NCBI GenBank assembly: GCA_015067005.1
Contig: SVNH01000012.1
Span: 1 to 64,000, forward strand
Source: Ruminococcus flavefaciens
GTDB taxonomy: Bacteria > Bacillota > Clostridia > Oscillospirales > Ruminococcaceae
Reading direction: 5' to 3'
Length of the DNA stretch: 64,000 nt
Shown one piece after another: positions 1,407 through 11,806 of the stretch. Each line of letters opens with the position of its first letter. The stretch's first letter is position 1. The position numbers and the translations under genes were made by a program. The notes under the pieces are model-generated. The model made no database searches, was not told the DNA's origin, and saw nothing but the letters and a program-made list of their open reading frames with translations.

Positions 1407-1678
1407 CGGAACAGCCTTCCGATTGCGGATATTGGTCCGCGGCGGTCCTTGTCTCCGTAGACAATCGCCCATATATCGCCTGTTATGGTCATGTTGCCGG
1501 TCTCCACGCTCATCGAGTCGATATGTAGTTCGCGTCCCTGAATGGTGAGTTCGCCGAGTTCGGTATAGAGACATATTTCGCGGTCATCAAAGCTGTCAAC
1601 ATCGGTTATTCCGGATATATTGAGACTTTTTCGGTTTTCAAGAATGAGATTGTGGTTCTGTTTGATTTTTTCCTGCAT
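1403..1678 (-). CDS. yabP: Sporulation protein YabP
   Basis: This 91-residue protein begins MQEKIKQNHN at an ATG preceded by a good AGGAGG site; upstream in-frame codons belong to the intergenic region. It shows the YabP pattern: NLILENRKSLNISGITDVDS followed by short beta-strand motifs (GELTIQGREL, GNMTITGDI). In Bacillus it is made under sigma-E and is required for correct cortex assembly together with YabQ. It is the first gene of the leftward yabPQ-divIC-S1 unit. No convincing sigma-E promoter could be assigned by eye. Confidence 0.88.
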   Translation of the reverse strand: MQEKIKQNHNLILENRKSLNISGITDVDSFDDREICLYTELGELTIQGRELHIDSMSVETGNMTITGDIWAIVYGDKDRRGPISAIGRLFR

Positions 1679-1866
1679 GATTTTACCCTCCTGAAAGATA
1701 GTATTACATTTTATGCAGCTGATGGACAAAATATTACTTTTGTGTGATATGCTGAATTCGCAAGACTTGTAAAAGCTTGCACTTGTGCAGGTATACAAAC
1801 TCAAAAATAATTTTTTCAATATTCAACGGGTTTGCATTGAAAAAAGGCGCTTTTTTGCCCCTTAGT

Positions 1867-1883
1867 GAACGGCGGTTCCGTTC
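1867..1883 (+). promoter_or_regulatory. Palindrome upstream of the phage-like operon
   Basis: GAACGG-CGGTT-CCGTTC is a perfect 6-bp inverted repeat ending 24 nt before the terminase start, just ahead of the AAAGGAGG ribosome site. It could be an operator or a short leader hairpin. No convincing -35/-10 pair was found in the 230-nt gap; the nearest (TTGTAA 1767, TATACA 1792) has a poor 19-nt spacing. Confidence 0.35.
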
Positions 1884-1907
1884 AGAACGAAAGGAGGTCA
1901 ACTATTT

Positions 1908-2387
1908 TTGAAGGATAATTCAATGAGAGATGCTTTCTGCTGCAACTATGTCATGCTTGGAAATGTTGCAGAAGCTGCTGCGAAAGCAGGAGTACCCAAT
2001 GAATCAGCGTTAAGTGAAGGTATGAAGTATCTCAGATCAGACTGCTGCCGGAAAAAGATCGCAGAGATGCGTCAGCTGATCTCGGACAGTGCAAACATCG
2101 TTGCAGGACTTAACAGGCTTGCATTTGGAAACTGTTCGGATGCGGTATATCTTGTTTTCGCGGATGAACTTCCGCCTGCCGAGGTGATAAGCAAGCTTGA
2201 CCTGTTTAACGTTTCCGAGATCAAGCGTGTCAAGGGCGGCGGTGTTGAGGTAAAGCTTTTTGACAGGCTGAAAGCACTCGAAAAGCTTTTTGAACTGAGC
2301 AATGCTTTTTCAGACCGCGATAAGGCTTCTGAGCTGATGTCGGCGCTTATCTCTTCCGGGGAGGACGAGGATACTGATGATCCGTAA
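1908..2387 (+). CDS. Phage terminase small subunit-like protein
   Basis: This 159-residue protein has a helix-turn-helix-like N-terminus (FCCNYVMLGNVAEAAAKAGV) and a C-terminal helix (VKLFDRLKALEKLFEL) typical of small terminases, which bind phage DNA and hand it to the packaging motor. The start is TTG at 1908, 10 nt after AAGGAGG; the next ATG (1923) is too far from that site. It opens a nine-gene rightward operon and overlaps the large terminase by 11 nt. The assignment rests on weak family resemblance plus its position directly before a clear large terminase. Confidence 0.75.
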   Translation: MKDNSMRDAFCCNYVMLGNVAEAAAKAGVPNESALSEGMKYLRSDCCRKKIAEMRQLISDSANIVAGLNRLAFGNCSDAVYLVFADELPPAEVISKLDLFNVSEIKRVKGGGVEVKLFDRLKALEKLFELSNAFSDRDKASELMSALISSGEDEDTDDP

Positions 2388-3618
2388 ACTCTCACGCAAA
2401 CAGAAGCTTGCTATGAAATGGTGGACTATCCCGGAATACCGCGCTATGGACGCTGTTATCTGTGACGGTGCGGTCAGGAGCGGAAAAACACTTTCGATGT
2501 CGCTCGGCTTTATGTTCTGGGCTTGCAGCAGCTTCAGCGGCGGTTCTTTTGCGATATGCGGCAAGACTATTACTTCGCTGCGCAGGAATGTCGTAACGCC
2601 GCTTCTGCCTGTTTTGAAACAGTACGGTTTCACCTGTATTGAGAAGGTGAGTGGTAACTACTTCGATGCGACTTTTCTCGGAAAAACTAACCGCTTCTAC
2701 ATTTTCGGCGGTAAGGATGAGGGCTCTGCCTCGCTCATTCAGGGCATGACGCTTTCCGGAGTTTTTTTCGATGAGGTCGCACTTATGCCGCGTTCATTTG
2801 TGGAACAAGCTCTGGCGAGATGTTCTGTTGCAGGCTCGAAAATGTGGTTCAACTGCAATCCTGATACCCCGGCGCATTGGTTCTATAACGAGTGGATAAG
2901 AAAACACGAAGAGAAACACGCGCTGTATCTCCATTTTACTATGGACGATAATCCTTCGCTGACTTCTTCGATGAAAGATCGCTACAAGCGTCTTTATACC
3001 GGCACATTCTATGACAGATTCGTGCTCGGAAAGTGGACTGCCGCTCAGGGGGCTGTGTATCCGATGTTCAGCAGGGAAAAGCACGTTTATTCCGGTGAGA
3101 TAGACTGCGAACGCTACATTATCTCATGTGATTACGGCACTGTCAATCCCTCATCATTTGGTCTGTGGGGACTTCACAACGGCGTATGGCATCGCCTGAA
3201 GGAATACTACTATTCCTCGAAACGAGAGGGAGTTCAGCGCACGGACGAGGAACACTATTCGGCTCTGGAAGAGCTTGCCGGCAGCAGGAGGATAAGTCAT
3301 GTTATAGTTGATCCTTCGGCGGCAAGCTTTATCGAGTGTATCCGCAGACATTCAAGATTCAGAGTTGTAAAGGCTGACAATGACGTTGTTGCTGGAATAC
3401 GCCGCGTAAGCACTATGCTCAGAGAGGGAAAACTGCTTTTTCATGAATCATGCAGCGACATCATACGCGAATTCCAGCTGTATTGCTGGAACGAAAAGAC
3501 CGGCAGCGATGCTCCTGTTAAGGAGAACGATCACGCTATGGACGATATGAGGTATTTTGTTACCGATATTCTTAGTTCAAGGGGCAGTGATATGATAGCG
3601 CTTTCGGTAAGACGATGA
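2377..3618 (+). CDS. Phage terminase large subunit (PBSX type)
   Basis: This 413-residue protein has an ATPase half with Walker A GAVRSGKTLS (about residue 32) and Walker B GVFFDEVALMP (about 128-138). The PBSX-family segment WFNCNPDTPAHWFYNEW follows. The nuclease half starts at SCDYGTVNPSSFGL and has a second Asp at IVDPSA and a late DHAMDDMRYF motif. Terminases of this type cut concatemeric DNA and drive it into procapsids. All catalytic acidic residues I would expect are present, so the enzyme looks intact. Length matches the family. Confidence 0.92.
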   Translation: MIRKLSRKQKLAMKWWTIPEYRAMDAVICDGAVRSGKTLSMSLGFMFWACSSFSGGSFAICGKTITSLRRNVVTPLLPVLKQYGFTCIEKVSGNYFDATFLGKTNRFYIFGGKDEGSASLIQGMTLSGVFFDEVALMPRSFVEQALARCSVAGSKMWFNCNPDTPAHWFYNEWIRKHEEKHALYLHFTMDDNPSLTSSMKDRYKRLYTGTFYDRFVLGKWTAAQGAVYPMFSREKHVYSGEIDCERYIISCDYGTVNPSSFGLWGLHNGVWHRLKEYYYSSKREGVQRTDEEHYSALEELAGSRRISHVIVDPSAASFIECIRRHSRFRVVKADNDVVAGIRRVSTMLREGKLLFHESCSDIIREFQLYCWNEKTGSDAPVKENDHAMDDMRYFVTDILSSRGSDMIALSVRR

Positions 3619-3680
3619 ATAACTGCCGCCGTTCATCATTCGGTGCGCCGTCCGTTAAGGGAGGCGCGAAAGGAGGAAAA

Positions 3681-4826
3681 ATGAAGCTATTTAAGAAGAA
3701 GGGAGCTTCGCATAATGTTCCCGAGCTTATTTCGGCTGCGCGTTCTCATGATATGAGCGTAAGTCTGCCGCCGGTCATACAGCCGGCTGAAAAGGAGCTC
3801 TATGACAGACTGAGAGCAGCTGTTCCGGTCATAGATGCAGCTTTGATGAAGATAATACGTCTAACGGGCGGATTCAGAGTTGTATGCAGCGATGAGGAAT
3901 ACCAGGATGATCTTGACCGTTTTCTTGAAAATGTTCCGGTTGGATTAAGCGGAAAATCAATAAATTGTTTCGCTGATAATTTTCTTGATAGTCTTCTGAC
4001 TTACGGAAGTGCGGTCTGTGAGATAGTTCAGGACAGCGAAAACCAGCTTATCGCAGGACTATGGATGGGTGATGTTTCAGCTGTTTGTATGCAGGCTGGC
4101 AAAGAACCGTTTGCGAGGTCTTATACTGTCAGGAGCAAAGACGGTTCATGTCACAAGGTCGAGCATCCTGAGAATATCCTGTATGCCGCGCTGACTGGCG
4201 GACACTCTGTTCTGAGAGGTCTGCCGGCATTAAGCAGTATTCTGCTCAGGATATACGAATGTATCGGTCAGAACTACGACCGTGCAGGAAATGTGCGATA
4301 TGCGGTAGTCTATAAGCCTCAGAGCGGTACGGATGATTTCGTGTATTCGCGCGAACGTGCTCAGCAGATCGCTGATGAGTGGGCGGACGGCATGAATTCT
4401 GCGCGTTATGGTCAGGTCAAGGACTTCGTGGCTGTCGGTGATGTGGACATAAAGGTCATCGGCGCGGATAATCAGCTGTTTGACACCAATGTTCCGGTGC
4501 GTCAGATACTGGAACAGCTTATTGCAAAGCTGTCTATACCGCCTTTTCTGCTTGGACTCAACTGGAGTTCAACGGAGAGGATGTCCTCTCAGCAGGCTGA
4601 TATACTCACATCAGAGCTGGAATATTACAGGCGGCTTATAAGTCCCGTGATATGCGATGTTGCCGGTGCTTATCTGAGTTCGATAGGTGCAGAGGCGGAT
4701 TGCAGTGTTGAATGGGATAACATCAATCTTCAGGATGAAACAGCTCTTGCTGAGGCGCGTCTCAAGAACGCACAGGCAAGAGAGATCGAACTTCGTCTGG
4801 ATGCTCAGACGAACAATAATAATTAA
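3681..4826 (+). CDS. Phage portal protein
   Basis: This 381-residue protein starts at MKLFKKKGAS behind an ideal AAAGGAGG site; the 22 in-frame codons upstream are rejected. The core (residues ~60-330) has portal-like features: a central region around VLRGLPALSSILLRIYECI and the segment PVRQILEQLIAKLSIPPFLLG before a long helix. Portals form the dodecameric channel at one capsid vertex and dock the terminase. It sits between large terminase and capsid as in standard head modules. The C-terminus is an Asn-rich tail. Confidence 0.85.
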   Translation: MKLFKKKGASHNVPELISAARSHDMSVSLPPVIQPAEKELYDRLRAAVPVIDAALMKIIRLTGGFRVVCSDEEYQDDLDRFLENVPVGLSGKSINCFADNFLDSLLTYGSAVCEIVQDSENQLIAGLWMGDVSAVCMQAGKEPFARSYTVRSKDGSCHKVEHPENILYAALTGGHSVLRGLPALSSILLRIYECIGQNYDRAGNVRYAVVYKPQSGTDDFVYSRERAQQIADEWADGMNSARYGQVKDFVAVGDVDIKVIGADNQLFDTNVPVRQILEQLIAKLSIPPFLLGLNWSSTERMSSQQADILTSELEYYRRLISPVICDVAGAYLSSIGAEADCSVEWDNINLQDETALAEARLKNAQAREIELRLDAQTNNNN

Positions 4827-4839
4827 TCGGAGGTAAATT

Positions 4840-5811
4840 ATGTATAACGATATTAAACTTGAAAAGGGACTTTACAACCTCAGCGGAAGATCATTCACCG
4901 CTGCTCTCGAGGAACTCGATCCTTCCTCAGCTTACGCAGGAACCCCGCTCGAAAAGCTTGATGCGTTTGAGCGTCAGCTGAAGCGTTTCAATATCCGTAT
5001 CAGCGGTCAGGACTGCGACTGCGTTGAGAAGTTCTTCTCATCCACTGAAACAGCAGTTCTTTTCCCTGAGTTTGTTACACGCTCTATCAGAAAGGGCTTC
5101 GATGAGACTATCCTCGGCACTATCTGCGCTGCTAAGACCGTTGCGAATTCCAGCCAGTATCTTGGCTGTGACCTCGATGACAGCGAGACCTACACTACTG
5201 CTTCTGAGGGTACAACTCTTCCAGAGGCTACTGTTACTGAGGGTGCAAATGCTGTTACACTTGCAAAATACGGCAGACTTATCAGCGCTTCCTATGAGGC
5301 GGTTCGCCAGCAGAGACTTGATGTTTTCGGAGTTATGCTCAGAAGCATCGGCGTGAGACTTGCTGCATCTGTTGTGAATGCGGCTGTTACAGCGCTCGTA
5401 ACCGGTGCTGATGAAGTTGAAACTGCAACAACTACTCTCGCTTATGCTGATATTGCCAATCTTTACGGAAGCTTCAGTGCATTTGATATGACTACCGTTA
5501 TCGCTTCTCCTGAGAATGCTGCACTCATTGCGGCTATGGAGCAGCTTAAAGACTGCTCTGCTGATGCTCAGGGAAGACTCATCATTCCTCTCGGTGCCGA
5601 ACTCATCAAGTGCTCAGCTGCGCCCGAGAAGAAGATCATCGGTATAGACCGTGATTTCGCACTTGAATTCATCACAAGCACTGATCTTGTTATGGAAACA
5701 GATAAGCTCATCGACCGTCAGCTCGATCAGATCACAGTTTCTATCAATTGCGGCTTCAAGAAGATAACTCCGGATGCCGTTAAGGTGCTCAAGATCAAGA
5801 GCGGCTCATAA
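4840..5811 (+). CDS. Phage major capsid protein (HK97-fold-like)
   Basis: This 323-residue protein lies 13 nt after the portal gene behind GGAGG. Its arrangement fits HK97-type capsids: an N-terminal helical arm (residues ~1-70), then a core with GTTLPEATVTEGANAVTLAK and an A-domain-like centre (TTVIASPENAALIAAMEQL). It ends in strand-rich sequence (QITVSINCGFKKITPDAVKV). Identity is inferred from order, size and composition rather than a single motif. A strong hairpin follows the stop codon. Confidence 0.8.
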   Translation: MYNDIKLEKGLYNLSGRSFTAALEELDPSSAYAGTPLEKLDAFERQLKRFNIRISGQDCDCVEKFFSSTETAVLFPEFVTRSIRKGFDETILGTICAAKTVANSSQYLGCDLDDSETYTTASEGTTLPEATVTEGANAVTLAKYGRLISASYEAVRQQRLDVFGVMLRSIGVRLAASVVNAAVTALVTGADEVETATTTLAYADIANLYGSFSAFDMTTVIASPENAALIAAMEQLKDCSADAQGRLIIPLGAELIKCSAAPEKKIIGIDRDFALEFITSTDLVMETDKLIDRQLDQITVSINCGFKKITPDAVKVLKIKSGS

Positions 5812-5824
5812 CTGAAAACGAGGG

Positions 5825-5849
5825 GGATGCCCTGATTTTCAGGGCATCC
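5825..5849 (+). terminator. Strong hairpin after the capsid gene without a T-tract
   Basis: GGATGCCCTG (5825-5834) pairs perfectly with CAGGGCATCC (5840-5849) around a 5-nt loop. Because no T-run follows, it is more likely a partial terminator or 3'-end mRNA stabiliser than a full stop. Either would raise capsid mRNA over the downstream genes. Confidence 0.55.
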
Positions 5850-5888
5850 TCTGAATTTCCGAAACGATCAAAACTACAAGGAGGAACT

Positions 5889-6719
5889 ATGAATACTGAT
5901 ATTCTCGAAAAGATCAACCGTTTCACACGCCGTCCGCTCAAAGAGGATGAGGTGTATGTTTTTTCGGTGATACTCTGCGATAACGAGATCGACCGCGATT
6001 TTGAGCGCTTTTCAGATGCTTCGCTTGAAGAACTCAAAGATAAATTTGTCGGCAAGACAGGTATTTCGGATCACAATGCGACATCTGCCAATCAGACTGC
6101 ACGTATTTTTGATACAGAGATAGTAAGTGATGATGTGCGTATCACCAAGACCGGCGAAATGTACCGATACCTCAAAGCAAGTGCCTATATGGTGCGTACC
6201 GGCGAGAATAAGGATCTCATTTCCGAGATCGACGGCGGTATCAAAAAGGAGGTAAGCATTTCCTGTTCGGCAGAAAGACGCATCTGCTCGATATGCGGCT
6301 GTGACAGGGCAAAAGGCTCATGCAGCCACGTAAAAGGCAGAAAATACGGCGGAAAGCTTTGCTACGACATCCTTGAAGGCATCAGCGACGCTTATGAGTG
6401 GAGTTTTGTAGCTGTTCCGGCGCAGGTAAATGCCGGAGTTACAAAGCATTATACATCCGGTGATGTTGTAACTTCTCCTGTTGAGGAGTGTATCGCTGCT
6501 GATGAGGAGCTCCGCAGGGATATACGCCGTCTTGCTTACTTTGTCGGCGGAAGAGAGGCTGCTAAAACTGTCGGTCTGACCGCAGGAGGCATGAATACTC
6601 AGCAGCTTATCGCACTTAAAAAGTCGCTTGAAAAGCGCCGCGGCAGGAACGGAATAAAGATCGAACTCAGAAGCGAGAATGATGCCGCCGAAGATAACGC
6701 AGTATTTTCAATGAAATGA
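5889..6719 (+). CDS. Phage prohead protease-like protein with Cys cluster
   Basis: This 276-residue protein resembles the XkdF / S78-type capsid maturation proteases. It has an early strand region (VYVFSVILCDNEIDRDFE), a His near residue 59 (GKTGISDHNA), a Ser-containing strand (IKKEVSISCSAERR) and the hallmark DAYEWSFVAVPAQVNAGVTK. A possible metal-binding cluster (CSICGCDRAKGSCSH) sits between the last two. Such proteases process scaffold and capsid during head maturation. Here the gene follows the capsid gene, whereas in HK97 and PBSX it precedes it. The catalytic triad cannot be fixed by eye. Confidence 0.65.
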   Translation: MNTDILEKINRFTRRPLKEDEVYVFSVILCDNEIDRDFERFSDASLEELKDKFVGKTGISDHNATSANQTARIFDTEIVSDDVRITKTGEMYRYLKASAYMVRTGENKDLISEIDGGIKKEVSISCSAERRICSICGCDRAKGSCSHVKGRKYGGKLCYDILEGISDAYEWSFVAVPAQVNAGVTKHYTSGDVVTSPVEECIAADEELRRDIRRLAYFVGGREAAKTVGLTAGGMNTQQLIALKKSLEKRRGRNGIKIELRSENDAAEDNAVFSMK

Positions 6720-6727
6720 GGTGCAAT

Positions 6728-7093
6728 ATGGATATTGGTTCTGTAAAGAGTCTGTTTGAACTGTTTTCGGGCGAAGAATCCGAGAATTTTATGCCGTTCA
6801 TCACGCTTGCAGCTGCTGAGACTGAGAATATGCTCAGCCCTGCGGCGGATGTGAATGATGTCCGGCTTGGTTTCCTTGCGGCAGCAATGGCAAACTACCG
6901 TCTCAGACAAGCTGAGGCATCTCGTGATCTTACAACTGCTACTTATGCCGGAAAAATGCTGAAAGCAGGCGAAACGAGTCCGCTTTCCGGTGCTGCCGCG
7001 CTGCTCAGGGACTATCTCCAGCTTTGCGATGACATCATAGAGCGGAAAACATTCGTATTTTCAGGAGTTTCAGGAGGGGAGAAGGTATGCTGA
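6728..7093 (+). CDS. Putative phage head-tail connector protein
   Basis: This 121-residue mostly helical protein (LAAAMANYRLRQAEASRD) starts at MDIGSVKSLF. That ATG has a GAGGTG site just upstream; the ATG at 6716 overlaps the previous stop and lacks one. Small helical proteins in this slot, after the capsid genes and before the tail-completion genes, are usually head-tail connectors that extend the portal. No sequence motif proves it, so the call is from size, predicted helicity and position. Confidence 0.5.
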   Translation: MDIGSVKSLFELFSGEESENFMPFITLAAAETENMLSPAADVNDVRLGFLAAAMANYRLRQAEASRDLTTATYAGKMLKAGETSPLSGAAALLRDYLQLCDDIIERKTFVFSGVSGGEKVC

Positions 7094-7497
7094 ATACATT
7101 GATCGAATCCATGAAAACAGCACTTCTCCGCGCAGGAGCTTCGCCGGTTTACAGTGCCTTTGATGCTGTAAGGACTGACCGCAAGGAAAAGGGGATATAC
7201 ACGATAGTCGGTGTTGATTCGTTTGAAAGCTTTACGCCTGTCTATACGCCTTATGTTGCATATCTGCCGTTCAGGGCGGATGTAAGCGTAAAGATAACCG
7301 CGCCGCCTGATATGCCGCTTGAAACGCTTTATGACTATTACAGCGGTAAGGTCGCAGATGCTCTTGATGAGTTCATGGGGCTTACTTCATCGCTGAAAAA
7401 GCTGACCGTAAAGTTTGATTCCAATATCGGCAGACTTGTTCTGTCGGCAGTTCTTTCAACAGGCGGAGTTACGCGCATCGAAAGAGGTGAACCATGA
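7087..7497 (+). CDS. Putative phage head-closure / tail-terminator-like protein
   Basis: This 136-residue alpha/beta protein overlaps the preceding gene by 7 nt and has the strong site GGAGGGGAGAAGG. Its layout (helix at residues 1-16, then strands, then the helix LETLYDYYSGKVADALDEF, then the strands LTVKFDSNI and LVLSAVLSTGGV) is like that of tail-terminator or minor tail proteins. Those complete the tail end that joins the head. Homology cannot be shown by eye. Confidence 0.4.
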   Translation: MLNTLIESMKTALLRAGASPVYSAFDAVRTDRKEKGIYTIVGVDSFESFTPVYTPYVAYLPFRADVSVKITAPPDMPLETLYDYYSGKVADALDEFMGLTSSLKKLTVKFDSNIGRLVLSAVLSTGGVTRIERGEP

Positions 7498-7883
7498 ACG
7501 GTGATCTGATAATAGAACAGCGTAAGGCTGTTCCGGTGTTTATATGCGGCATACAGCTTTTCTGCGACAGCTTCAGTGTTTCTGATACTAAAGTTATAGC
7601 CGAAAGAGCTACTGTAAGCGGCGGAAATGCCGTAACAAACATTCATCCGAAGTGTTCAAGAGTTGTTCTGAAGGGCAGGACTTTTAACGAGACCACACCT
7701 ATGGAGCCTGTATGTGTCCTGAAGGGCTTCATGGATAACTCTCAGACGTTCAATTTCTTTTATCGTGGGATAAGCTGCAAAAACTGTCGTGTAGCTGCGT
7801 TTACAGTTGAGGACAGCGGCAGGAATTATCTTGATTTCAGCCTGACGCTTGCCGTTGAAGAGTTTGAAAGCGTAGGAGGGTGA
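7494..7883 (+). CDS. Uncharacterised phage tail-like protein
   Basis: This 129-residue, strand-rich protein is translationally coupled (ATGA) to the gene before it. It contains CSRVVLKGRTF and a pair of Cys residues (ISCKNC), and ends with a regular strand (LDFSLTLAVEEFE). The slot between a terminator-like protein and a hub-like protein would normally hold a tail tube, but the sequence is not recognisable as one. A baseplate or adaptor role is equally possible. Confidence 0.4.
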   Translation: MNGDLIIEQRKAVPVFICGIQLFCDSFSVSDTKVIAERATVSGGNAVTNIHPKCSRVVLKGRTFNETTPMEPVCVLKGFMDNSQTFNFFYRGISCKNCRVAAFTVEDSGRNYLDFSLTLAVEEFESVGG

Positions 7884-7887
7884 TATT

Positions 7888-8814
7888 CTGGAAGCTTATG
7901 TAAATATAATGGATTCTGCCGGAAACTATGTGAGGGAAGAGAAGCTGCTCGATTTTACTTTCAGAAAGGATGCCTATGTTCCGTATACGATGTTCAGATG
8001 CAGCATAGCAGCCGATCATCAAAGCTTTTCCGATACTGCTGAGATACAGCTTGTTATAAACAGACACGCCGTTCACCACGGACTTCTTGATTCTATAACC
8101 GCAGAAACTTCCGGAGAGGGAACGATATTGAAGATAACCTCGAAAGGCTTCACATCGCTGCTTTGTCAGAATCAGATAGAGCCGGGACTTAAAAGCGGAG
8201 TTTCTATCAATTCGCTCATGGACGGGTTCTATACCCTGCCATATGTAACGCATGAGAACAACTCAGATACGAGCAATTACATCTATGTCAAGAAGAACTC
8301 ATCAATGTGGGACGGTGTTGCAAATCTTTCCTACAAGCTTTGCGGAACATATCCGTATATCCGCGGAACGAACTGTGTAAGGATAACTCCATATCCAAAT
8401 CCGCAGGTAACTTCATATACAGCAGATCAATTGATCTCTGTCGGTATGACGGAGAGTGGTCAGAATCTGGTAAGTAATTTTCACATGGCTGATATAAACG
8501 GTGATTTCGGAACTTATGATCTTCAGGACGATGATGTTGCTGCGCGTAAGATAATACGTCACAAATACTTTGATCTTGATATGCAGTTTCTGCAATCTCC
8601 TCAGGATGCGCTTGTTTACCGCGATAAATTCTGTTCACGCGCATCGGTCGGCAAGTTCTGCACTTACAGCGGAAATAACGGCGAAGATCTCTCGGATGTA
8701 GTAAGCTTTCCGGGAGTTACTTCAAAGCGTATATCTGCTGTGTCGATCTATGGAAGTCAGAGTGGTATTTTTACCCGCCTTGATGTGTATGAGGACGGCT
8801 TTCCGCATCAGTAA
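7888..8814 (+). CDS. Phage baseplate hub-like protein (gpD/late-control-like)
   Basis: The reading frame carries an AGGAGGG site at 7874-7880 followed 7 nt later by CTG (7888), giving 308 residues starting LEAYVNIMDSAG; the first ATG (7909) has no ribosome site. The protein has a beta-rich N-terminus (residues ~5-75) and a middle region (SINSLMDGFYTLPYV, SMWDGVANLSYKL). A C-terminal region (KRISAVSIYGSQSGIFTRLDV) resembles late-control D / hub proteins of contractile or siphophage tails. It is the last gene before a strong terminator, so no tape measure, spike or fibre gene follows. Confidence 0.55.
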   Translation: MEAYVNIMDSAGNYVREEKLLDFTFRKDAYVPYTMFRCSIAADHQSFSDTAEIQLVINRHAVHHGLLDSITAETSGEGTILKITSKGFTSLLCQNQIEPGLKSGVSINSLMDGFYTLPYVTHENNSDTSNYIYVKKNSSMWDGVANLSYKLCGTYPYIRGTNCVRITPYPNPQVTSYTADQLISVGMTESGQNLVSNFHMADINGDFGTYDLQDDDVAARKIIRHKYFDLDMQFLQSPQDALVYRDKFCSRASVGKFCTYSGNNGEDLSDVVSFPGVTSKRISAVSIYGSQSGIFTRLDVYEDGFPHQ

Positions 8815-8863
8815 ACGCAGTAATAAGACCTGATTTAGCAAATCTCACTTAACATAAAAGCAG

Positions 8864-8901
8864 ATTACCGGGCTTGAATTTACAGACCCGGTAATTTTTT
8901 T
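8864..8901 (+). terminator. Intrinsic terminator closing the phage-like operon
   Basis: ATTACCGGG (8864-8872) pairs with CCCGGTAAT (8887-8895) and runs into seven T. It is 50 nt after the hub-like gene and separates the phage-like block from the GH74 gene. Confidence 0.9.
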
Positions 8902-8979
8902 GTAATGCTCCATGCTTTGTATGTCAGCTGATATTTCTGTGATTTCACTAATTATGGTGCAAAAACGTCTAAAAAACTA

Positions 8980-9008
8980 TTGACAAAGACGATTCTTTGT
9001 GATACAAT
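8980..9008 (+). promoter_or_regulatory. Sigma-A-type promoter of the GH74 gene
   Basis: TTGACA (8980-8985), a 17-nt spacer and TACAAT (9003-9008) lie 80 nt ahead of the start codon, leaving a leader of about 73 nt. Confidence 0.85.
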
Positions 9009-9088
9009 ATAATTGCAAAAATATGTTCAGAAGCTGTTGGGACTTTAGGCACGTTCCACAGCGCTTACTGACAAATGGAGGGTAAAAA

Positions 9089-11806
9089 ATGAATACTTTA
9101 AAAAAGACTATGGCAGGTCTTTTGGCAGTATGCCTGTGTACTACGGGCATACCGGTTACTCATGCGATCAGAGATACCGGCTTCGTTGCTGCCGCAGCTG
9201 ATGGCGACATTCGCTCAGACATGAAATGGGAAGCCCTGAGAATAGGCGGAGGCGGCTTCGTTTCGGGAATCGTTACCGGTCAGAACGAAATGTATCTTCG
9301 TACAGACGTTGGCGGCGCGTACAGATACGACTACGATAAGAAGAAGTGGGAGCAGCTCTTCGGATTCATCAATGAAGATGACAGAGGACTCCTCAGCTGT
9401 AAGGGTATCGCTATTGATCCGACAGATGATATGACAGCTTATTTCCTCTGCGGATGTGCGTACTTCTCAGACGCTAAGACCGTTATCTTCAAGACTACCG
9501 ACGGTGGCAAGACATTTACCAGCGCTGACGTTACAGACCTTATTCAGGTACACGGAAACGGCGACGGACGTGAATGTATCGAGCCTATCGCAGTTGATCC
9601 GGATAACCCGGATACTATCTATGCCGGCGGCGATGTTACAGCCGGCAGCTCAGCACTTATCAAGTCAACCGACGGCGGTAAGACATGGAAGCCGGTAGAG
9701 GGCTATGATTCTCTCGGTCTTTTCTCCGGCGAACTCAAATACCCGATGTGGACTGACCATATGGTAAGAGGTACTGAGCCCACTAAGGAATACAATCAGC
9801 AGAACGGAATCGGATGCGTCTATATCGAGGGCGGCATGGTCTATGTCGGCACTTCCGTTACCGGTCAGGCTAACATCCATGCTGCAAGCGTAAAGGACGA
9901 TAAATTTGAAGCTATCGAGGCTCTTCCAAACGAAAACTATCCGCTTTCTATAACAAGCGATCACAACGGAAATCTTTTCTTCACTTATATCGCAGGTCTT
10001 GATTTCAAGGGTGCTTCCGGCGGTGCATATAAGTACAACATCAAGTCCGGAAAGGCTGAAAAGCTCTCCGTTTCCGACAATTCTATCGGTATGATAGAGG
10101 TGGATAAAAACGATCCGAACAAGATGTTTGCGCGTACCTGCGGTCTCTGGTCCGCTCAGTGGTATGGCACTGAATGGGTGAATGATGATCCAACAACTCC
10201 CGAGGACGAAGGCACTATCGCTGACGGCGATTACTTCTTCCGTTCAAATGACGGCGGCAAGACATGGGAGAATATCACTCCCGGTCAGGGACCTACTGAC
10301 TATACAGTAAGTCCGCCGGTAAAGCATTTTGTTTCAAATCCTATGAGTACTAACGGTTATGACTGGATCTACCGCAAAGCCTGCCACTGGGGCAGCACCA
10401 TTGTAATTGATCCGCGTGATACCGAGGGCGACCGTATCCTTCTTACTTCCGGCAACGGCGTTTTCGCCTGCGATAATGCATGGGACGAAGAGGGAATACA
10501 GTTCTATTTCCAGCCGGACGGCGTTGAGGAAGTAGTTTCGCTCGACTTCGTAAGTACAGCAGACGGTCTCGATCTTTCCGCTATCGGCGACTATGACGGA
10601 TTCGTTCACGAATCAATAGACGGAATCCCTCAGCAGCACAAGCCTAACATGGGTTCTACCTCTGCTATCGCAGTATGCCCGCAGAATACCGACGTATGGG
10701 CAAGAACAGCCGAGGGCGACGGCAATAACCACGGCAGCGGCTATTGCACTCTTGACCGCGGCAAGACATGGACTTCCTTCAATGCTGCATTCAAGGGCGG
10801 AAAGCTTGCTATCACAGAGCTTTCCGAGGGCAAATACAGAATATTCAATACCGGTGCCGGCAAGGATAAGGGCAGCGGTGTGGCTTATTCCGATGATCTT
10901 GGCAAGACATGGACAAAATGCTCAGAAATCGAGGCTACTTATGGTGCTTATCCGCTCGTTGATCCTGAGGATCCGAGCATAGTATACGTTGCAGCTGCTC
11001 AGCACAATCAATACTGGTCATCTGATAAGACAAAAACAGAGCCTACATTCGACGAATCACATTATTCTGTCTATATCAGTGAAGATTACGGTAAGACCTT
11101 CAAGGAGGTGCGTGTCTGCCCTTATAACTGGGAGCTCGATTGGAAATTCCAGAATACAGGCGATCTTGCTTACCTCGGCAACGGTACAGTTGCTTTGGCT
11201 GCCGCAAATCACGGTATCTACCTTATCTCCGACAAGGGCGAGAAGGTCGAGCAGCTCGATAATGTTTCCTACTGCAAGTGTATAGGCTATGGCGCTCCCG
11301 AAAAGAAGGGCAATGTGAATACCCTCTTTATTTATGGTAAGCCCGGTGCAGACGATGAAGAAGGCGTTTATCGTTCAACAGACGGCGGTAAATCATGGGT
11401 ATGCATCAATACTGATCACCTCTATGGCGGTACAGGCAACGGCAACTACCTCGTTGGTGATATGAACGAATTCGGAAAGGTATATATGTCCACAGTCGGA
11501 TGCGGTATCATCTGCGGTTATCTTAGCGACGGTGAACCGGAAACTCAGCCTTCCTCTTCTTCTAAGGTAGTTTACGGCGATGCTAACTGTGACGGCAATA
11601 TTGATATGTCCGACGTTGTTATCGTAATGCAGGCTTGTCTCAATCCTAAGAAGTATGGTACAAATGGCACGAGTGCAGATCATATTAAACCGGAGGGTGA
11701 GATCAACGGCAATGTCGATCTCAAGGATGGTCTGAGTGCGAATGATGCACTTTATATCCAGCAGTATACTCTCAAGATAATAACTTCACTGCCTATAAAG
11801 AAATGA
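9089..11806 (+). CDS. Secreted GH74 xyloglucanase with C-terminal dockerin
   Basis: This 905-residue protein has a signal peptide (about residues 1-27), then a GH74 catalytic region to about residue 815. That region opens with WEALRIGGGGFVSGIV and is built from repeated Asp-box blades (KTTDGGKTF, KSTDGGKTW, RSNDGGKTWEN, YSDDLGKTWTK, RSTDGGKSWV), as expected for tandem seven-bladed propellers. GH74 enzymes cleave xyloglucan backbones outside the cell. A short Ser-rich linker leads to a type I-like dockerin (about 828-905) with two calcium-binding segments (GDANCDGNIDMSDVVIVMQA and a second ending NDALYIQQYTLKI). The dockerin would attach the enzyme to a cohesin on a scaffoldin. It is a single-gene unit with its own promoter and terminator. 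Confidence 0.95.
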   Translation: MNTLKKTMAGLLAVCLCTTGIPVTHAIRDTGFVAAAADGDIRSDMKWEALRIGGGGFVSGIVTGQNEMYLRTDVGGAYRYDYDKKKWEQLFGFINEDDRGLLSCKGIAIDPTDDMTAYFLCGCAYFSDAKTVIFKTTDGGKTFTSADVTDLIQVHGNGDGRECIEPIAVDPDNPDTIYAGGDVTAGSSALIKSTDGGKTWKPVEGYDSLGLFSGELKYPMWTDHMVRGTEPTKEYNQQNGIGCVYIEGGMVYVGTSVTGQANIHAASVKDDKFEAIEALPNENYPLSITSDHNGNLFFTYIAGLDFKGASGGAYKYNIKSGKAEKLSVSDNSIGMIEVDKNDPNKMFARTCGLWSAQWYGTEWVNDDPTTPEDEGTIADGDYFFRSNDGGKTWENITPGQGPTDYTVSPPVKHFVSNPMSTNGYDWIYRKACHWGSTIVIDPRDTEGDRILLTSGNGVFACDNAWDEEGIQFYFQPDGVEEVVSLDFVSTADGLDLSAIGDYDGFVHESIDGIPQQHKPNMGSTSAIAVCPQNTDVWARTAEGDGNNHGSGYCTLDRGKTWTSFNAAFKGGKLAITELSEGKYRIFNTGAGKDKGSGVAYSDDLGKTWTKCSEIEATYGAYPLVDPEDPSIVYVAAAQHNQYWSSDKTKTEPTFDESHYSVYISEDYGKTFKEVRVCPYNWELDWKFQNTGDLAYLGNGTVALAAANHGIYLISDKGEKVEQLDNVSYCKCIGYGAPEKKGNVNTLFIYGKPGADDEEGVYRSTDGGKSWVCINTDHLYGGTGNGNYLVGDMNEFGKVYMSTVGCGIICGYLSDGEPETQPSSSSKVVYGDANCDGNIDMSDVVIVMQACLNPKKYGTNGTSADHIKPEGEINGNVDLKDGLSANDALYIQQYTLKIITSLPIKK

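Follow-up and report, generated by a model that had tools for sequence, protein, structure and literature searches.

Nearly all sampled Ruminococcus species carry one intact and strongly selected copy of a phage-derived operon, represented in the window (the whole 64,000-nt stretch of R. flavefaciens DNA that was analysed) by a rightward block of nine open reading frames at positions 1908-8814. This block is real and intact, and is not a decaying prophage. The best explanation is that it is an ancient phage head module that the bacterial lineage captured, mostly vertically inherited as a cellular operon. That it has been domesticated and is under selection is almost certain; the fuller reading, to which a probability of about 0.72 is assigned, is that of an ancient, mostly vertically inherited packaging system resembling a gene transfer agent (GTA), with a nearly dismantled tail.

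The preliminary description had portrayed terminase, portal, capsid and protease-like genes with intact frames in a tightly coupled operon, and this was borne out. The first five genes match profiles (Table 1), all nine frames are open, and seven of the eight junctions (-11, -4, +13, +77, -4, -7, -4 and +4 nt, from the first gene to the ninth) are overlaps or gaps below 20 nt, the exception being the 77-nt gap 3' of the capsid gene. The strong terminator placed past the last gene is also there, as a stem-loop with a T-run; it is missing from a mechanical hairpin scan, presumably because its loop exceeds the limit of that scan. A minor correction is that the last gene starts at a TTG codon at 7888, giving a product of 308 aa. 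Base composition resembles that of the neighbours, as had been stated, with a G+C content of 47.5% in the block against 45.5% in the rest of the window, which is inside the range of same-size windows elsewhere (41.6-47.7%), though at its top. The reported lack of an integrase extends to all integration and replication genes within the block, and the reported lack of attachment-site repeats agrees with the finding of zero direct repeats of at least 14 nt flanking it within 1650-9090; nor is there a tRNA within the whole window. As the window begins at base 1 of its contig, the left flank was examined instead in a relative that is 98% identical (L032), in which the upstream ORFs of at least 150 aa look housekeeping-like (by eye, aroE, shikimate kinase and a guaB-like gene among others), and no integrase or replication genes were seen upstream of the block.

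Table 1. Features of the block and its surroundings, in window coordinates
Feature	Position	Strand	Basis
Dyad-symmetric promoter/operator-like element, consensus TTTGTGCANNNATACAAA	1782..1799	+	Recurs 5' of terS in most of 71 aligned loci
Leader hairpin 1	1822..1841	+	5/8 pairs changed on both sides
Leader hairpin 2, just 5' of ribosome-binding site	1866..1884	+	Paired in 86.6% of cells; changes on one side only
Small terminase subunit (TerS), N-terminal HTH-like part apparently kept	1908..2387	+	PF03592, E 1.4e-12
Large terminase subunit (TerL)	2377..3618	+	phrog_2, 2.2e-47
Portal protein	3615..4826	+	phrog_30703, 4.4e-130
Major capsid protein	4840..5811	+	phrog_3922, 1.2e-66; PF25209, 1.5e-12
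Strong hairpin in the 77-nt gap 3' of the capsid gene	5825..5849	.	11-bp stem; fold -25.3 kcal/mol (5815-5860)
XkdF-like head maturation protease candidate with embedded CxxC...CxH zinc-binding-like motif	5889..6719	+	phrog_16951, 1.7e-91
Head-tail connector candidate, 125 aa	6716..7093	+	Position after capsid/protease genes; aligned family A5; function by position only
Neck or tail-terminator candidate, 136 aa	7087..7497	+	Family A4; position only; weak single PHROG matches
129-aa protein, tail-tube/Hcp-like fold	7494..7883	+	AlphaFold model, pLDDT 90
Baseplate central hub, Mu gp44 / T4 gp27 type	7888..8814	+	AlphaFold pLDDT 94; Foldseek 1wru
Intrinsic terminator	8864..8901	+	Stem-loop and T-run read from sequence; fold -17.4 kcal/mol (8855-8905)

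The capsid gene of the operon was detected in 116 of 125 Ruminococcus genomes, and in 65 of the 68 of high quality; one of the three high-quality exceptions (G031) is an assembly gap, and in four genomes (G069, G091, G093 and G115) the match is split in two pieces. Loss of the capsid gene in L016 and L093 was considered and rejected, being an assembly gap of 100 N. The portal gene was present in 32/36 genomes of the genus, and its profile had a single match in each of 141/297 genomes of the family, all with E <1e-100 save one partial match (G472, 2.4e-49), and in each of 62/297 genomes of the order, spanning five families. By a strict count, which neither L093 (for its assembly gap) nor L100 (for a short TerS frame) passes, 56 of the 59 assessable relatives have all nine frames intact; L082 and L100 are the broken or partial cases within this set, and L060 (TerL) and L087 (capsid) are such cases outside it. 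Carriers of the block include several laboratory or type strains of R. flavefaciens, such as FD-1, Y1 and YAD2003. Calculating dN/dS for each gene, as had been suggested, revealed purifying selection throughout, with no relaxation toward 1: medians in close pairs were 0.06-0.14 across all nine genes, lowest for capsid, TerL, TerS and portal, with the 129-aa and hub genes evolving faster. Domestication, proposed from the window's sequence, is thereby strengthened by a genus-wide, single-copy, intact and selected block that retains its packaging motifs and has no flanking repeats. Nothing was found of what had been named as evidence against it, namely restriction to this strain with attachment sites and a full phage in close relatives, relaxed selection, or an adjacent tail or lysis module lost by recent deletion.

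The genomic site is less constant. The yabP-flanking position proposed for comparison proved not to be a general location, being found in only 3/80 relatives (L032, L034 and L036), some loci being too short on the left. Other flanks, judged by eye, were FeoA-like downstream (17/59), AzlC-like upstream (10/54) and PurD-like upstream (9/54), and in family f24 the block lies between degV and hflX in four of five fetched loci, from three genera. Portal and rpoC distances are correlated (Mantel r 0.455 over 23 genomes, with a value as high in 1/2000 permutations), and their nearest neighbours agree in 11/23 genomes and differ in 12/23. The correlation speaks for the reading of mostly vertical inheritance, and the agreement, being only moderate, against it.

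The packaging genes have kept the residues by which they are recognised. In TerL, the Walker A residues are found in 74-75 of 76 sequences, and all 76 have the Walker B residues and the acidic residues of the nuclease. The protease candidate belongs to a family of unknown function (phrog_16951) and matches Pfam Peptidase_S78_2 with an E of 0.028, below the cut-off; His62, Ser123 and the C133/C136/C145/H147 set occur in 77/77 sequences; these are putative catalytic and zinc-binding-like positions. The alignment of TerS to PF03592 spans model positions 7-137 of 141, and its N-terminal region, which we take to be a helix-turn-helix (HTH), is recognisable as an HTH-like block in a 74-row alignment, at a mean majority share of 0.57-0.67 versus 0.78-0.93 in the middle; residues 18-80 align weakly to a solved TerS (overall E 0.075). 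The available text of PMC6854486 describes the TerS of RcGTA as being without an N-terminal DNA-binding domain, and proposes this as a mark of the GTA type. As the Ruminococcus TerS seemingly retains this region, the system is named GTA-like, rather than a GTA, and its packaging could be sequence-specific, which counts against the GTA-like reading.

The window's own copies of the last four genes had no profile match better than E 0.1, and predicted structures are more informative for two of them. The best Foldseek matches of the 129-aa protein (5.8e-6) are to phage baseplate and tube-fold proteins, with weaker ones including a chain of the RcGTA structure (6tba_50, 3.8e-4), and this protein is a possible adaptor ring joining neck to hub. 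The hub model aligns with Mu gp44 (PDB 1wru) at a Foldseek E of 1.7e-16 and a TM of 0.73, at 11% sequence identity, and 5/43 members of the hub family, the window's copy not among them, match the baseplate hub phrog_177 (best 1.8e-9). Mu gp44 and the last gene product have a common fold, whereas the remainder of a Mu-type tail was not found here. Near the block, sheath and baseplate J genes were each seen in 0/80 Ruminococcus loci, versus 10/94 and 21/94 other loci, respectively, some loci being short; hence the absence of the tail is not peculiar to this strain. The suggested search for tail genes elsewhere found neither a PF10145 tape measure nor baseplate J in the strain's own genome. Baseplate J was absent from 21/21 genomes of the genus searched, although a divergent counterpart of the second FpGTA operon (see below) may have escaped this search. 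Sister lineages are graded: some have sheath and tube but lack a long tape measure, some have just a baseplate, and others just the hub (as in this window) or just the head. Of 270 viral-contig relatives, the best 80 are on contigs 2.6 to 25.8 kb long, and the eleven of these inspected ORF by ORF carry blocks of the same types, none of them looking like a complete phage with this head module.

These genes suggest a mechanism in which the XkdF-like protease would mature the capsid protein, which would assemble on the portal; TerS and TerL would pump DNA into the head through ATP hydrolysis, then cut it; and the connector, the 136-aa protein, the 129-aa tube-fold protein and the hub would cap the portal as a stub replacing the tail. 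The particles could be released upon lysis of some cells, as proposed for FpGTA in the available text of PMC12946183, and would work as a gene transfer agent does, but with the injection tail nearly gone. Small particles filled with DNA, made for the cell, are the probable product of the operon. That the block packages DNA is highly likely. As replication and integration genes are absent, the cargo would be expected to be mostly host DNA, which is rated somewhat probable; that the packaged DNA reaches other cells is rather more doubtful than not. The GTA-like reading, which would comprise both host-DNA packaging and delivery, has further points against it, besides the broken or partial loci and an integrase gene upstream of the block in one distant viral-contig relative: the absence of a tail leaves delivery without explanation, no lysis gene is linked to the block, and no PF05105 holin was found in the strain's own genome, though one was in 8/10 genomes tested.

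Comparison with known systems places the block closest to GTAs, as it consists of phage-derived structural genes resident without replication or integration genes, conserved across a lineage and under purifying selection. PBSX of Bacillus subtilis is a Gram-positive, chromosomally fixed element with an XkdF-type protease and a gp27-type hub, but its complete contractile tail and lysis genes were not found in or beside the Ruminococcus block. RcGTA of Rhodobacter capsulatus possesses a tail, whereas neither a sheath nor a tape-measure gene is part of the Ruminococcus block, whose TerS seemingly still has the N-terminal domain. Domesticated, host-resident head and packaging genes are common to RcGTA and the block (available text of PMC6854486 and PMC7947584). 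The nearest published case is FpGTA of Faecalibacterium, compared here by its description in the available text of PMC12946183 with a system known from its genes. Both are stripped operons in which TerS, TerL, portal and capsid are joined by few further genes, in hosts of the family Ruminococcaceae, as that 2026 faecal study writes. They differ in that FpGTA I has ten ORFs over 10.5 kb, that some strains add a second operon (baseplate, fibre, RBP, holin and endolysin), and that the FpGTA TerS has no obvious DNA-binding domain. The same text names RCH50849.1 and RCH50851.1 among the FpGTA proteins, and reports that Faecalibacterium yields ~40-nm particles on which no tail could be identified, as well as 4.6-kb packaged DNA of Ruminococcus callidus, for which it names no operon. 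No paper naming such a Ruminococcus operon was among those listed by searches of the open-licence PMC literature, and the available portion of a rumen virus review (PMC7113391) has nothing on one. Vesicles of Ruminococcus albus were reportedly found to transfer DNA (Klieve, 2005).

Several other functions could be served by such genes. A non-injecting, DNA-filled, tail-less capsid that exports protected DNA, to competent kin or a matrix, or stores it, would suit the head and motor genes that form the usual core, and tail content that falls to none in fetched relatives; the ComEC domain PF03772 occurs in 10/10 tested genomes of the genus, including this strain's own, but its presence in 10/14 control genomes means it is no proof of competence, there is no known way to open the capsid, and Ruminococcus retains a hub, leaving this unlikely. 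A capsid-forming satellite of the cf-PICI kind, making its own heads and borrowing tails from helper phages, is very unlikely. Head, terminase and connector genes in the absence of tail genes are the cf-PICI pattern, helpers may often exist (PF10145 is in 44/68 high-quality genomes of the genus), and in L268, a distant relative on a viral contig, a phage integrase (PF00589, 1.1e-15) is encoded ~3.8 kb upstream of the block, beyond a sigma-factor gene. However, the window's block is without an integrase, att sites or replication genes of its own, it is single-copy and near-universal, the strain's genome has no PF10145 tape measure, and the retained hub gene would duplicate that of a borrowed tail.

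A PBSX- or tailocin-like particle that kills relatives is very improbable indeed: the block does have hub and tube-fold genes, the faster evolution of the 129-aa and hub genes could mirror contact with variable targets, and the available text of PMC12946183 takes PBSX as its Gram-positive comparator, yet all 80 Ruminococcus loci are without a sheath or baseplate J homologue in the vicinity of the block, a PF10145 tape measure is missing from the strain's own genome, and dN/dS is lowest in the capsid, TerL, TerS and portal genes rather than at the tail end. An anti-phage device, in which co-expressed head parts poison the assembly of infecting phages, would favour intact single-copy head genes, but the near-invariant motor and protease residues would be unneeded for mere poisoning, making this highly improbable. 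A defective, recently arrived prophage remnant would account for an incomplete set of phage-derived genes, but has next to no chance of being correct, given frames that are undisrupted in nearly all assessable relatives, selection that is not relaxed, single copies across family and order, and the lack of repeats.

If the GTA-like packaging system is as proposed, the range of such systems grows from a single genus to much of an order of common gut and rumen bacteria. A more speculative proposal, held with less than even confidence, is that one head-and-motor module has been in the order since before its families split, with tails dismantled stepwise in several lineages, leaving a hub or nothing, while the packaging motor stayed strongly selected. 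Selection would then favour packaging DNA and exporting it in capsids without tails, rather than phage-like injection; if true, this would be a gene transfer or protected-DNA particle without a tail. The lineages form a natural series of tail content in which the packaging motor is retained throughout, and comparing those with and without tail genes makes testable whether selection maintains GTAs for injecting and transferring DNA or for packaging and releasing it. The Ruminococcus DNA packets seen in faeces may come from this operon, which would supply their missing source; the block is a candidate locus for R. callidus-type packaging, the genes for which were unnamed in the 2026 faecal study.

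Upstream of the operon, the dyad-symmetric element is also a genome-wide motif, enriched over a reversed control in 6/6 genomes; a dedicated GTA regulon was rejected, as the genes downstream of the fetched motif loci listed are unrelated. The Gram-positive LexA box consensus is fitted by GAACGGCGGTTC, which precedes terS in the window, but LexA control was likewise rejected, as GAACN4GTTC lies 5' of terS in just 2/71 loci, one at a different place, and the window has 2 sites versus 1.0 expected. Rfam gave no match across 1600-9100, and RNAalifold predicted no structure on the leader alignment (A1). The two-helix leader structure, picked by eye after the alignment had been inspected, has a covariation of 0.198, a value reached in 0/500 shuffles, versus 0.131 +/- 0.012 in shuffled alignments.

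The nine-gene block is most parsimoniously read as a gene transfer agent (GTA)-like system, because it appears to encode a DNA-packaging head, lacks replication and integration genes, and is inherited under selection. The source genome comprises 2.79 Mb in 28 contigs, of which C15 supplies the window as its bases 1-64000. As originally described, most junctions are tight, with five overlaps and gaps of 13 and 4 nt; 3' of the capsid gene, a 77-nt gap contains an 11-bp hairpin that possibly separates capsid expression from that of the downstream genes. This gap varies in length among relatives, reaching more than 300 nt. The terminator noted 3' of the block was recovered, and, as first described, no integrase was found at the block and no repeats were found flanking it; no tRNA genes were found in the window. 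A 98% identical locus from an uncultured Ruminococcus (L032) reaches further left, where its upstream open reading frames (ORFs) of at least 150 aa look like housekeeping genes; the genus name Ruminococcus is itself taken from such named relatives. The next gene after the block resembles, by eye, a large secreted dockerin-bearing glycosidase, and 14 of 59 loci likewise have a relative of this gene downstream of the block, perhaps only a sign of a multicopy family.

Features at and around the block (TerS and TerL, small and large terminase subunits)
Feature	Position in window	Strand	Content or location
Dyad TTTGTGCANNNATACAAA	1782-1799		leader 5' of terS
Nine-gene block	1908-8814	+	TerS, TerL, portal, major capsid, XkdF-like protease candidate, connector candidate, 136-aa, 129-aa and 308-aa proteins
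Strong hairpin	5825-5849		between capsid and protease genes
Terminator	~8864-8901		3' of block
Glycosidase-like gene	9089-11806		next gene after block

Within Ruminococcus, the portal was found in 32 of 36 genomes of a first sample. Of 125 genomes, 116 carry the capsid gene; in the high-quality subset the figure is 65 of 68, where one of the three misses is an assembly gap (G031) and the others are genomes G063 and G134. The capsid gene is single-copy in each genome, the exceptions being matches in two pieces (G069, G091, G093 and G115). The gene set set out in the preliminary description recurs in relatives: among the best 80 of 142 in named genomes, tblastn placed all nine genes in the same order in 53 of the 59 loci with enough sequence on either side, the 129-aa gene being undetectable in the other six and, in one of these, the 136-aa gene as well. 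The intact frames reported for the window are likewise general, as all nine were open in 56 of 59 loci under a strict count, which took in loci with all nine genes found away from the ends, and in 58 of 59 under a laxer one. Of the three exceptions to the strict count, L082 shows frame breaks as well as assembly gaps, L093 has its capsid gene interrupted by an assembly gap, and in L100 the TerS frame is short; beyond this set frames were broken in L060 (TerL) and L087 (capsid). One contig with a Ruminococcus-type block (L105) belongs to a MAG named Alistipes senegalensis and was probably misbinned.

Purifying selection, as the suggestion of domestication had anticipated, was evident from pairwise dN/dS (Nei-Gojobori, 20 to 30 pairs per gene, TerL dS 0.05-0.6), with medians from 0.061 for the capsid to 0.138 for the 129-aa protein, and individual pairs of the latter's gene reaching 0.72. 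The TerL Walker A lysine was present in 75 of 76 rows, the remaining row being a gap, and all 76 rows keep the acidic residues of Walker B and of the nuclease, while His62, Ser123, C133, C136, C145 and H147 of the protease candidate were invariant in 77 of 77; our motif assignments follow what is known of the families. Given the low dN/dS and these retained residues, what selection maintains appears to be a functional packaging motor and a head that matures. Portal and rpoC distances were correlated across 23 genomes (r 0.455; 1 of 2000 permutations as high), with concordant nearest neighbours in 11, and the vertical signal of the block is clear but moderate. The suggested check for a shared yabP-flanking site showed that this site is not the general one: the yabP side was seen in 3 of 80 loci, some of them short on the left, and the site varies among species groups. 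Other recurrent neighbours, named by eye, were FeoA-like downstream (17/59), and AzlC-like (10/54) and PurD-like (9/54) upstream, and in family f24, four of five fetched loci, from three genera, had the arrangement degV-block-hflX.

Beyond the genus, a search of 297 high-completeness genomes from the order with a single portal protein matched 62, once each, in five families, and a portal profile matched 141 of 297 family genomes, in 50 of 95 genera, again once each, with all E-values below 1e-100 bar that of G472 (partial, 2.4e-49). Tail content is graded across 20 stretches fetched from such genomes, taken together with eleven viral contigs and a small number of previously fetched loci, as judged by an ORF scan in which longer overlapping frames hide genes in some stretches. 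One type of block carries a sheath (L224: PF17482, 1.9e-6; phrog_279, 1.9e-13) and tube-like genes, with only a 72-75-aa gene at the expected tape-measure place (L224:15069-15287, and L235), and possibly encodes an extremely short contractile tail. Another has genes for a LysM-type protein, hub, baseplate J (L293: 3.2e-46) and Mu gp48-like protein (2.5e-11), with no sheath seen; a third ends with the hub, as in the window; a fourth lacks it (L236, L112); and L226 stops after the capsid gene. Within 12 kb of the portal, sheath homologues were found in 0 of 80 Ruminococcus loci against 10 of 94 others, and baseplate J in 0 of 80 against 21 of 94. The direction of change, judged from shared phage origin rather than a dated tree, would be tail loss. 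In two genomes of 0.9 and 0.7 Mb (L228, L229) the portal homologue stood alone, with TerL and capsid not recognisable in the fetched stretch.

Elsewhere in the block's own genome, neither baseplate J nor a PF10145 tape measure was found, although divergent families could escape such searches, nor was a PF05105 holin. In the genus, PF10145 occurs in 67 of 125 genomes with variable copy number, the pattern expected of ordinary prophages, so a tape measure of this family is not a regular companion of the block. On a viral contig with a distant relative of the block, a phage integrase gene (L268:388-1494; PF00589, 1.1e-15) lies ~3.8 kb upstream of TerS, behind a sigma-factor gene; it is there by chance or is a sign of mobility. 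A record labelled Bacteriophage sp. in GenBank (L112, MT835508.1) looks like bacterial chromosome: several kilobases from its block lie housekeeping genes, among them rpoA and genes for ribosomal proteins. Many block contigs of 2.5-10 kb are classed as viral in IMG/VR (L116-L132, L143), with portals 68-99% identical to that of the window.

In the sections of PMC12946183 consulted, the GTA of Faecalibacterium (FpGTA) has particles of ~40 nm, lacking identifiable tails, and DNA of ~9 kb. Packaged Ruminococcus callidus DNA of 4.6 kb is also reported there, and these sections name no Ruminococcus operon for it. The block is proposed as a candidate locus for R. callidus-type DNA packaging; the species, assigned to Ruminococcus by NCBI, was itself not found among the best 80 of 142 named block relatives. 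TerS tells against a full GTA label, as the window's copy seems to keep an HTH-like N-terminus, its Pfam alignment starting from model position 7, and PMC6854486 proposes loss of the N-terminal domain as a mark of the GTA type. The similarity of this N-terminus to a solved phage TerS is weak (E 0.075). Unlike those of Ruminococcus, the ~119-aa TerS frame at L114:11634-11993, in another relative, has no PF03592 match and seemingly misses its N-terminal part. A ComEC domain in 10 of 10 tested genomes would allow, rather than demonstrate, uptake of released DNA. Among the papers listed in searches of the open-licence literature, Faecalibacterium supplies the only GTA-like operon described for the group. 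The new elements here are the operon in Ruminococcus and the genus-wide selection on it, its single-copy occurrence in 50 of 95 sampled family genera and also beyond the family, and the gradation of tail content.

Among the last four gene products, the predicted model of the 308-aa protein (mean pLDDT 94, with 42 relatives) has phage Mu gp44, a central hub, as its best PDB match (1wru, E 1.7e-16, TM 0.73), and related tail hubs of phages rank next. The 129-aa protein (pLDDT 90, 38 relatives) is predicted to fold like a tail tube or Hcp; even its best matches, which are baseplate and tube-fold proteins, are weak (5.8e-6), and its role is ambiguous. The candidate roles of the 136-aa and 125-aa proteins follow from gene position.

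A leader 5' of terS recurs in most of 71 loci, and comprises the dyad and two hairpins, the first showing compensatory changes and the second lying directly before the ribosome-binding site. Covariation over both hairpins in 30 chosen loci scored 0.198, against 0.131 +/- 0.012 when shuffled (0/500) and at most 0.098 when slid, for a structure picked by eye and with counts that relatedness of the sequences can inflate; RNAalifold predicted no structure from the same alignment. The dyad is a common motif of these genomes, also found 5' of unrelated genes. With up to two mismatches allowed, six Ruminococcus genomes show it enriched 2.8- to 13-fold over its reversed control, and it may represent a class of promoter or small RNA units in repeated copies. 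Arrays with copies ~100 nt apart occur (G008:C1:17350-18305, G008:C8:383164-383481, G013:C14:29757-30275 and G019:C1:675691-676351), some adjoining, by eye, relaxase or plasmid-like genes.
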